This document shows positions 416-57,556 of a stretch of DNA of 64,000 nt, one piece after another (the stretch's first letter is position 1; the number at the start of each line of letters is the position of its first letter). This stretch comes from Corynebacterium deserti GIMN1.010 (lineage in GTDB: Bacteria > Actinomycetota > Actinomycetes > Mycobacteriales > Mycobacteriaceae). The stretch covers positions 930,001 through 994,000 of the forward strand of contig NZ_CP009220.1 of assembly GCF_001277995.1 (NCBI RefSeq). Reading direction: 5' to 3'. The notes beneath the pieces are model-generated. The model was not told the origin of the DNA and did no database searches. It saw only the letters and a list, made by a program, of their open reading frames with translations. The position numbers were made by a program, and so were the translations under genes.

Positions 416-1363
416 ATGAAGAAGACCGACCACACCTCACTTCCAGAATTTCGAAAGAACCCACCGAAACTGGACAAAAAGGCATACGAAAAAGAACTGA
501 AGCGCCTTCAGGCAGAACTCGTCGATCTACAACAATGGGTCGTCGAAACTGGTGCCCGTGTAGTCATCGTGATGGAAGGCCGCGACGCCGCCGGAAAAGG
601 CTCCGCCATCAAGCGCATCACCCAATACCTCAACCCACGATCTGCACGCATCGAAGCCCTCCCAACACCCAACTCGCGGGAAAAAGGGCAGTGGTACTTC
701 CAGCGCTACATCGAAAAACTGCCAACAGCTGGCGAGATCGTCATTTTCGACCGCTCCTGGTATAACCGCGCAGGCGTCGAACGCGTCATGGGATTCTGCA
801 CCTCCCAGGAATACCGCCGCTTCCTTCACCAAGCCCCCATCTTTGAACGCCTCCTCGTCGAAGACGGCATCCACCTGCGTAAATACTGGTTCTCCGTCTC
901 TGATGAAGAGCAAATCAAACGCTTCCGAGACCGCCTCAGCGACCCCCTGCGTCGCTGGAAGCTGTCCCCAATGGACCTGCAATCCATCACCAAGTGGGAA
1001 GACTACTCCCGCGCCAAAGATGAAATGTTTATTCACACCGACATTCCATCCGCACCGTGGTACACCGTGGAATCTGAAGACAAGAAGCGTTCCCGAATCA
1101 ACGTCATCTCCCACCTGCTGTCAACGATTCCTTACGAGAAGATCGACCGCCCCCTTCCTGAGATCCCTGACCGCCCTGATACCGAGATGGACTACGAGCG
1201 CCCACCTCGCGAAGACTTCCGTTACGTTCCCGATGTAGCCGCACACCTAGAGAAGGACCGCATCGAAAAGGAAGAGGAAGAAAAAGCCAAGGCTAAGAAA
1301 GCTAAAAAGGCTAAGAAGTCTTCCGAGGATGAGGGTAAGAAATCTAAGAAGAAGAAGAAGTAG
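416..1363 (+). CDS. ppk2A: Polyphosphate kinase 2 family protein (PPK2A type)
   Basis: Encodes 315 residues of a PPK2-family kinase, which moves phosphate between polyphosphate and nucleoside di- or triphosphates in the cytoplasm. The Walker A motif GRDAAGKG is at residues 55-62 and the Walker B/lid segment FDRSWYNRAG at 111-120, both typical of the family. The catalytic domain ends near residue 255. The last 35 or so residues form a tail of Glu, then Lys/Ala, Ser and pure Lys, which is longer than a minimal PPK2. The gene stands alone between terminators. No ribosome-binding site is evident and a -10-like TAGTCT (403-408) sits 7 nt before the ATG, so the mRNA may be leaderless. C. glutamicum has two PPK2 genes; assignment to ppk2A rests on my memory of the locus. 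ppx2 lies later in the window. Confidence 0.85.
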   Translation: MKKTDHTSLPEFRKNPPKLDKKAYEKELKRLQAELVDLQQWVVETGARVVIVMEGRDAAGKGSAIKRITQYLNPRSARIEALPTPNSREKGQWYFQRYIEKLPTAGEIVIFDRSWYNRAGVERVMGFCTSQEYRRFLHQAPIFERLLVEDGIHLRKYWFSVSDEEQIKRFRDRLSDPLRRWKLSPMDLQSITKWEDYSRAKDEMFIHTDIPSAPWYTVESEDKKRSRINVISHLLSTIPYEKIDRPLPEIPDRPDTEMDYERPPREDFRYVPDVAAHLEKDRIEKEEEEKAKAKKAKKAKKSSEDEGKKSKKKKK

Positions 1364-56591: not shown

Positions 56592-57556
56592 TGACGCGCT
56601 ATGCTGCCGTCGACTGCGGAACCAACTCCATCCGCTTGCTTATTACCGAGGTATCTGACGAAGGCTTTAAGGAAGTGGTCCGCGAAAACACCATCGTGCG
56701 CCTGGGCCAAGGTGTGGATGCTACTGGTCGTCTTGATCCAGAAGCCATCGAGCGCACTCGCATTGCTTTGGAACACTACGTTGAACTGATGGAAGCCAAC
56801 GAGGTGGAGACTGTCCGCATGGTGGCAACATCTGCCACGCGAGATGCTTCCAACAAGGACGAATTCTTTGCAATGACCCGCCAGTTGCTGTCCCGGATTC
56901 GTCCTGGCTACCAAGCTGAGGTCATCACTGGCGATGAGGAAGCACTGCTAGCTTTCCGCGGGGCGATCGTGGATCTTCCAAAAGATCAGGGTCCTTTTTG
57001 CGTCATTGACTTAGGCGGTGGGTCCACCGAATTCATCGTCGGCACCTACGATGGTGAGATCCTTGGTTCCCACTCCGCGCAGATGGGTTGTGTCCGCCTG
57101 ACGGAGCGCATTATGCGCAGCGATCCACCCACCGAAACTGAAGTGGAAATCGCTCGAGACTATGTTGCCGAACGCATTGAAGACGTCAAAAAGATCGTGC
57201 CTATTTCCAAGGCAAAGACCTTCGTTGGTTGCGCTGGTACTTTCACCACCATTTCGGCGTGGGTGCAGGGTCTGGAGTTCTATGATCGCAATGCCATTCA
57301 TCTATCAGCGCTCAACTTTGATGCGTTGCGTGTGATCACCGATGAGATTATCTCAGAGTCTTCAACTCAACGCGCAAGCAATCCAGTTGTTGATCCCGGT
57401 CGTGCGGACGTTATCGGTGGTGGCTCTGTAGTTGTTCAGGCAGCGATCGAGCTCGCATCGGATGAAGCAGGCGTGGACTACATCATCATCTCGGAGAAGG
57501 ACATTCTCGACGGCCTCATCCTTGGCCTCGTTGAGGAGCAGGCCACTGGCGAATAA
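56591..57556 (+). CDS. ppx2: Exopolyphosphatase/guanosine pentaphosphate phosphatase
   Basis: Encodes 321 residues from the ATG overlapping the previous stop; an upstream in-frame start inside DUF501 is rejected. The ASKHA-fold Ppx/GppA signature is clear: AAVDCGTNSIRLLI at the start, TGDEEALLAFRG in the middle and IDLGGGSTEFIVG near residue 140. Ppx2 shortens polyphosphate from the ends; C. glutamicum has two such genes. It is short for the family, lacking the C-terminal HD domain of E. coli Ppx. It opposes ppk2A at the other end of the window. Confidence 0.9.
   Translation: MTRYAAVDCGTNSIRLLITEVSDEGFKEVVRENTIVRLGQGVDATGRLDPEAIERTRIALEHYVELMEANEVETVRMVATSATRDASNKDEFFAMTRQLLSRIRPGYQAEVITGDEEALLAFRGAIVDLPKDQGPFCVIDLGGGSTEFIVGTYDGEILGSHSAQMGCVRLTERIMRSDPPTETEVEIARDYVAERIEDVKKIVPISKAKTFVGCAGTFTTISAWVQGLEFYDRNAIHLSALNFDALRVITDEIISESSTQRASNPVVDPGRADVIGGGSVVVQAAIELASDEAGVDYIIISEKDILDGLILGLVEEQATGE

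Follow-up and report, generated by a model that had tools for sequence, protein, structure and literature searches.

To our knowledge, binding of polyphosphate (polyP) through lysine repeats is known for only a few bacterial proteins. The P. aeruginosa proteins EngA and SrmB, with 9 K per 20 residues, are reported to bind polyP via Lys-rich regions that C-terminal truncation removes, whereas two proteins of the same organism with 5 and 7 K per 20 exhibited no shift with polyP in the experiments described (PMC12077175). A related class of sequences, the polyacidic serine- and lysine-rich (PASK) segments, is defined by a published rule under which at least 15 of 20 residues (75%) are D, E, S, or K, including at least one K (PMC12345225). 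According to the same source, Lys-to-Arg changes in PASK and PASK-like proteins abolish their shift with polyP or severely reduce it, and polyP binding by E. coli YihI needs Lys, with D/E-to-N/Q changes failing to stop binding and S-to-A changes having little effect. The formal PASK of YihI is described there as playing at most a minor part in polyP binding, and a compositional match is therefore weak evidence. The PASK-polyP interaction is reported to be probably non-covalent (PMC12345225, citing Neville 2024), and the covalent K-PPn chemistry on PASK lysines is given as disputed (PMC12345225).

The DNA considered here, referred to as the window, is the whole 64,000-nucleotide stretch that was analyzed from the 3.03 Mb genome of Corynebacterium deserti GIMN1.010. 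Near its start lies a gene for a polyphosphate kinase, PPK2A, with a Lys-rich C-terminal tail. Judged by composition, this tail resembles a KPM-type, non-covalent Lys-repeat tail more than a conserved PASK segment or a site of covalent self-modification, because its Lys is kept among orthologs and its acidic and Ser parts are not. The reading that we favor, with moderate confidence, is that of a conserved tether which binds polyP non-covalently and specifically through lysine, since the feature that has been kept is the one that matters in the reported YihI, EngA, and SrmB experiments (PMC12345225; PMC12077175).

A class I PPK2 with a Lys-rich C-terminus

The first-pass annotation had placed a polyphosphate kinase at positions 416 to 1,363 of the forward strand, and this assignment is borne out. 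The open reading frame encodes 315 aa followed by a TAG stop, and its product is matched in profile searches by PF03976 (E 3e-103) and by TIGR03707 (polyphosphate kinase 2), the latter at 379 bits where the cut-off is 301.8. We use the names PPK2A and PPK2B as in that annotation and in the literature, and presume that they correspond to the C. glutamicum locus tags. The closest named PPK2A relatives belong to Corynebacterium. The catalytic core (467..1150, +), given by the Pfam match to residues 18-245 and by its conserved columns, is a PPK2 domain that carries both Walker motifs: the Walker A sequence GRDAAGKG (residues 55-62) and most of DRSWYNRAG (residues 112-120) are invariant in 59 aligned proteins, A119 being nearly so. 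PPK2 classes are marked by the residue after Walker B, which is Asn in class I, Gly in class II, and Glu in class III, as summarized in PMC8776046; N117 of DRSWYN, a position matched by eye, is invariant in the 59 proteins. By its family profiles and Asn signature the protein is a class I PPK2, predicted to phosphorylate NDPs from polyP or to make polyP from NTPs.

The core is followed by a linker of residues 246-279 (1151..1252, +), in which P251, R253, P254, Y260, R262, R265, V271, D273, and A275 are invariant or nearly so in the alignment. The linker ends in YVPDVAAHLE (270-279) and is common to tail-less orthologs; a motif resembling its end closes those of Dietzia and Streptomyces. Beyond it, the tail comprises the last 36 residues (280-315; 1253..1360, +), with 17 K, 1 R, 9 D/E, and 3 S and a net charge of about +9, and the acidic runs, serines, and Lys blocks that had first drawn attention to it are indeed present in this species. 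Its best 20-residue stretch contains 17 D/E/S/K residues, including 11 K, and KKKKK stands at the C-terminal end. This composition falls within the formal PASK rule (17/20) and equally within that used for KPM proteins, namely at least three consecutive Lys in a Lys-dense window (here 11 K per 20). A frame artefact as the source of the tail is ruled out because orthologs genus-wide have Lys-rich tails after the same conserved YVPD..A..L. motif. In the AlphaFold2 model, 10-residue blocks from residue 21 to 250 have mean pLDDT of 84-98, and residues 274-314 form a single helix with block pLDDT of 92-93, dropping to 70 at the end. The tail may thus be a charged, conditional helix instead of a random coil.

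Such a composition is rare in the genome. Our sample consisted of the window and 40 stretches of 20 kb (864 kb in all), in which 809 open reading frames of at least 80 aa were predicted mechanically, as distinct from annotated genes. PPK2A has the top Lys density among them. A density of at least 9 K per 20 occurs in 3 of the 809 anywhere and in 2 within the last 40 residues, and a formal PASK segment in 3, with PPK2A counted in each case. The second densest Lys C-terminus of the sample, PSKAKKGKKAKKSKK, belongs to a 145-residue protein (L208:18106-18543, +) for which no match was found in Pfam or NCBIfam. In a protein that we take to be sigma-factor-like (L220:9025-10551, +), AAKKTAKKTAKK repeats make up a Lys-rich stretch within the N-terminal part. 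A further protein, of 488 residues (L374:6650-8116, -), has a formal PASK window and an acidic C-terminus that contains Lys.

The tail is widespread in the genus. We compared 140 rows, made up of the 30 best genome matches, the 64 Corynebacterium loci among the 80 best named loci, 6 loci, and 40 picked by hand down the ranking, among the matches listed. Counting only once those rows that agreed both at the end of the core and in the tail gave 115 distinct Corynebacterium orthologs, a non-random set in which near relatives remain. At least five tail Lys are present in 101 of the 115. Median tail length is 20 residues (range 1 to 101; at least 8 residues in 107), and the net charge has a median of +9 (at least +4 in 105); KKK occurs in 81 and at least 9 K per 20 in 67. 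A second set of 41 genomes, partly overlapping the first, contains 36 with at least five tail Lys. Because 14 of the 115 orthologs have fewer than five tail Lys and 6 have tails of three residues or less, the tail is dispensable in some Corynebacterium species. As to whether it would prove absent or unrelated in close relatives, a question posed by the first-pass annotation, the answer is divided: the composition is kept, but the primary sequence diverges so fast that the letters are unrelated. Our literature search, which covered open-access papers and few subscription ones, found no paper that describes a Lys tail for Corynebacterium PPK2A.

Neighboring genes served as a control. Within the 64 named Corynebacterium loci, 39 of 52 recovered PPK2A reading frames reach 7 K per 20 in their last 40 residues, versus none of 313 other predicted ones (0/313), some of which are probably not genes, because the caller missed 12 of the 64 PPK2A genes, probably via longer overlapping reading frames. 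Ten near-complete genomes of 201 seem to be without PPK2A, their best match (about 1e-83) being PPK2B, and two incomplete ones (G092 and G118) have a weak PPK2A match or none. All ten (L238-L247) have an extra distant PPK2 besides PPK2B, whose identity to PPK2A in the matched part is 26-33%.

PPK2B, CHAD proteins, and a possible role on the polymer

The second PPK2 of this genome, PPK2B, is 52% identical to PPK2A, and we take it to be the ortholog of the class I enzyme PPK2B of C. glutamicum, NCgl2620. It differs from PPK2A in its acidic pI and in having no Lys tail. Across the best 30 of 40 genomes with a match, a Lys tail is absent from PPK2B in all 30 loci, in which the pI is 5.24-6.40; PPK2A of this species has a pI of 9.42, or 8.74 with its tail removed. 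Core segments alone lie below pI 7 in 39 of the 115 Corynebacterium PPK2A orthologs, and with their tails 111 of the 115 lie above 7.5. A basic pI is nonetheless not peculiar to tailed PPK2A, because 41 of 65 orthologs from outside the genus, mostly tail-less, also exceed 7.5. The granule-located PPKs of R. eutropha are stated to be only those with a basic pI, and the authors of the P. aeruginosa work comment that granule enrichment of the kinases is not perfectly predicted by it (both in PMC9239181). At the other end of the protein, PPK2B (L002:1438-2355, -) has an N-terminal extension bearing an acidic motif, VDDSDEDDP; similar motifs, with small changes, are visible in at least 6 of 10 PPK2B proteins from genomes without PPK2A.

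A tail common to all PPK2 proteins was considered and rejected, given its occurrence in 0 of 30 PPK2B and the presence of fewer than five tail Lys in 55 of the 65 outside orthologs. A tail on all polyP enzymes was likewise rejected: the genome contains two Ppx-GppA proteins, one of them encoded at positions 56642-57529 of the window (+), and both are without a Lys tail. A profile search for PPK1 (PF02503) found it in 0 of 101 Corynebacterium genomes, this one included.

CHAD domains have been described as specific polyP-binding modules (PMC6537752), and they exhibit a parallel enrichment. At least 7 K per 20 within the last 40 residues occurs in 20 of 39 Corynebacterium genomes (39 of 45 with a match), and at least 9 K per 20 in 9 of the 39. 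Among other Actinomycetes, the frequency of the former is 0 of 28 complete proteins (the 30 best-matching loci, minus one unrecovered and one running off its contig), and the highest density in these 28 C-termini is 4 K per 20. Some of the C-terminal Lys falls, by eye, inside the last helix of the domain, and for this reason the enrichment is supporting evidence and not proof. The CHAD protein of this genome (L282:844-2646, +, within G000:C1:2087500-2091500) has a Lys-rich C-terminus containing AAKRKKKNKRK. The idea that the PPK2A tail compensates for a missing CHAD protein was rejected, as the tail Lys count of 11 genomes without CHAD does not differ from that of 30 with it (p 0.76).

Were the PPK2A tail a polyP tether, the folded core would perform ordinary class I PPK2 chemistry and the flexible or conditionally helical tail would bind polyP chains via ionic contacts, like KPM proteins. 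Such binding would raise local polyP at the active site or hold PPK2A on polyP granules, and the tail would set PPK2A apart as the kinase bound to the polymer, PPK2B being acidic and tail-less, in a genus for which no PPK1 was found. If this is true, a polyP enzyme with such a tail in most of the genus, together with the CHAD trend, would connect the capture of substrate with granule association and the choice of enzyme where PPK1 was not found. More tentatively, the Lys tails of Corynebacterium could constitute a polyP address tag, added to the C-termini of the unrelated PPK2A and CHAD proteins and holding both on the polymer or granule, with PPK2B untagged and acidic.

The tail might instead be a general polyanion binder in the manner of histone-H1-type tails, directed at the nucleic acid of the ribosome, RNA, or nucleoid and touching polyP only incidentally, an explanation that we consider unlikely. 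The N-terminal Lys-rich stretch of the presumed sigma-factor-like protein noted above (L220) would be in keeping with it. The same can be said of AlgP, whose Lys-rich C-terminal peptides are reported to bind DNA and which, in the absence of polyP, appears with the nucleoid (PMC9239181), and of the links to ribosome assembly described for EngA and SrmB, both KPM targets, and for the PASK-like YihI (PMC12077175, PMC12345225). Yet C-termini of this kind are rare, being found in none of the 313 neighboring reading frames and, at 9 K per 20, in 2 of the 809 from this genome, and nevertheless they reside on two polyP-handling families; moreover, the paralog PPK2B is without a tail in all 30 loci (the best 30 of 40 genomes).

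Lysine retention and the PASK reading

Lys itself is largely kept in PPK2A tails while the other residues change. The pooled composition of the Corynebacterium tails is 46% K, 4% R, 12.5% D/E, and 7.5% S, and a run of four acidic residues occurs in just 2 of 140 tails, those of the window protein and of L057. In the 115 orthologs, the ratio R/(R+K) is 0.085 in tails versus 0.72 in cores. When the tails are divided into five GC3 bins, the ratio lies at 0.07-0.11 in all of them, and Lys exceeds Arg 8- to 14-fold in every bin. It is because acidic residues and Ser vary, Arg is rare, and this ratio is low in all GC3 bins that we regard Lys as largely maintained. The number of K per tail residue is 0.43-0.49 over the five bins, and tail Lys count drops weakly with rising GC3 (Spearman -0.22, p 0.016). 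GC-driven composition as the main cause was rejected despite this weak correlation, since high-GC species retain Lys with rare Arg. The preference for Lys over Arg may be general to basic low-complexity tails. Lys codon usage is close in tails (992 AAG, 208 AAA) and cores (1033 AAG, 187 AAA).

These data also bear on the possibility that the tail has no specific function, and is an unconstrained low-complexity extension growing by AAG slippage, or an aid to solubility or against proteolysis at the C-terminus. Lengths of 1 to 101 residues, fast sequence divergence, near-absence in some species, and the weak fall of Lys count with GC3 (Spearman -0.22) are what such an explanation would lead one to expect. 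We nevertheless find it doubtful: Lys per residue holds at 0.43-0.49 in the five GC3 bins with Arg rare, although AAG-to-AGG changes would yield Arg; Lys codon use is close to that of the core, and the Lys residues are interrupted by others; and such C-termini are absent from the 313 other predicted reading frames of the same loci.

The first-pass annotation had likened the tail to PASK segments. This stands for the present species, whose tail conforms to the formal rule (17/20), but the acidic and Ser character is not conserved: only 37 of the 115 orthologs have a PASK composition, and an added comparison (acidic runs in 2 of 140 tails; 12.5% D/E and 7.5% S versus 46% K) does not reveal it as a retained feature of the tail. 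A conserved PASK was therefore rejected as a summary of the retained features. Since Lys is conserved and the acidic residues are not, the formal PASK rule picks out the PPK2A tail for a partly wrong reason. Covalent polyphosphorylation of a PASK segment (K-PPn), in which the enzyme's own substrate would be attached to it and so regulate it, is highly improbable despite the formal match here (17/20) and the reported need for acidic residues in K-PPn of yeast Top1 (PMC7008358). Neither the acids nor the serines of the tail are conserved (PASK in 37/115, acidic runs in 2/140), and a non-covalent interaction is argued for in later work that PMC12345225 cites. YihI binding survived D/E-to-N/Q changes and was little affected by S-to-A. 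Where the original proposal spoke of an enzyme modified by its own substrate, "bound by" is the better wording, given that the contact between PASK segments and polyP is now described as probably non-covalent (PMC12345225). That proposal is thus partly supported, right in spirit in expecting a tail that would contact polyP and wrong in emphasis, the tail being a Lys repeat rather than a PASK and the putative contact being binding rather than covalent attachment.

Distribution outside the genus and comparison with known systems

Among the 65 orthologs from outside Corynebacterium, in 14 of which the motif was unmatched and an alignment served to place the beginning of the tail, at least five tail Lys are found in 10 (L105, L110, L126-L132, and L151). 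The six named Dietzia orthologs stop two residues past the motif, and both named Streptomyces orthologs stop at it. In a quick tree of PPK2A, in which 72 of 167 inner branches have support below 80, the 108 Corynebacterium rows form one clade (SH-aLRT 96) adjoining 11 tail-less Dietzia and Dietzia-like rows. Mapping of the tail onto this tree gives 13 changes, 10 within Corynebacterium and 3 outside, and the tree cannot decide between a single gain of the tail and several. Two genera of the same family (L126-L132) have their own Lys-rich PPK2A tails, in a clade apart from Corynebacterium. Retention of the tail in most of the Corynebacterium examined, and its lack in most others, suggests that it may help to hold the enzyme on polyP.

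Among solved structures, the nearest are those of class I PPK2 enzymes, F. tularensis PPK2 (FtPPK2; 5ll0/5llb) and S. meliloti SMc02148 (SmPPK2; 3czq/6dzg). The fold and catalytic motifs of PPK2A are as in FtPPK2 5llb (Foldseek E 5.8e-31, TMt 0.91), but the alignment of PPK2A with the crystallized class I enzymes stops at about residue 252. With the PASK segments of yeast Nsr1 and Top1, the PPK2A tail of this species shares conformity to the 75% D/E/S/K rule; it differs from them in that its acid and Ser content is not kept in Corynebacterium. AlgP, the H1-like, granule-associated protein of P. aeruginosa, is similar in being a polyP-associated protein with a basic, Lys-rich C-terminal tail, although, as described in PMC9239181, that tail is a 154-aa domain of KPAA repeats on a DNA-binding protein, whereas PPK2A carries its tail on an enzyme. 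The KPM proteins EngA and SrmB have links to ribosome assembly, whereas the PPK2A tail sits on an enzyme with polyP as its substrate. Like the KPM proteins, however, PPK2A has a Lys-rich C-terminal region with at least three consecutive Lys and at least 9 K per 20, and its 11 K per 20 and five Lys in a row place it above both the P. aeruginosa proteins reported to shift with polyP (9 K) and those reported not to (5 and 7 K) (PMC12077175).
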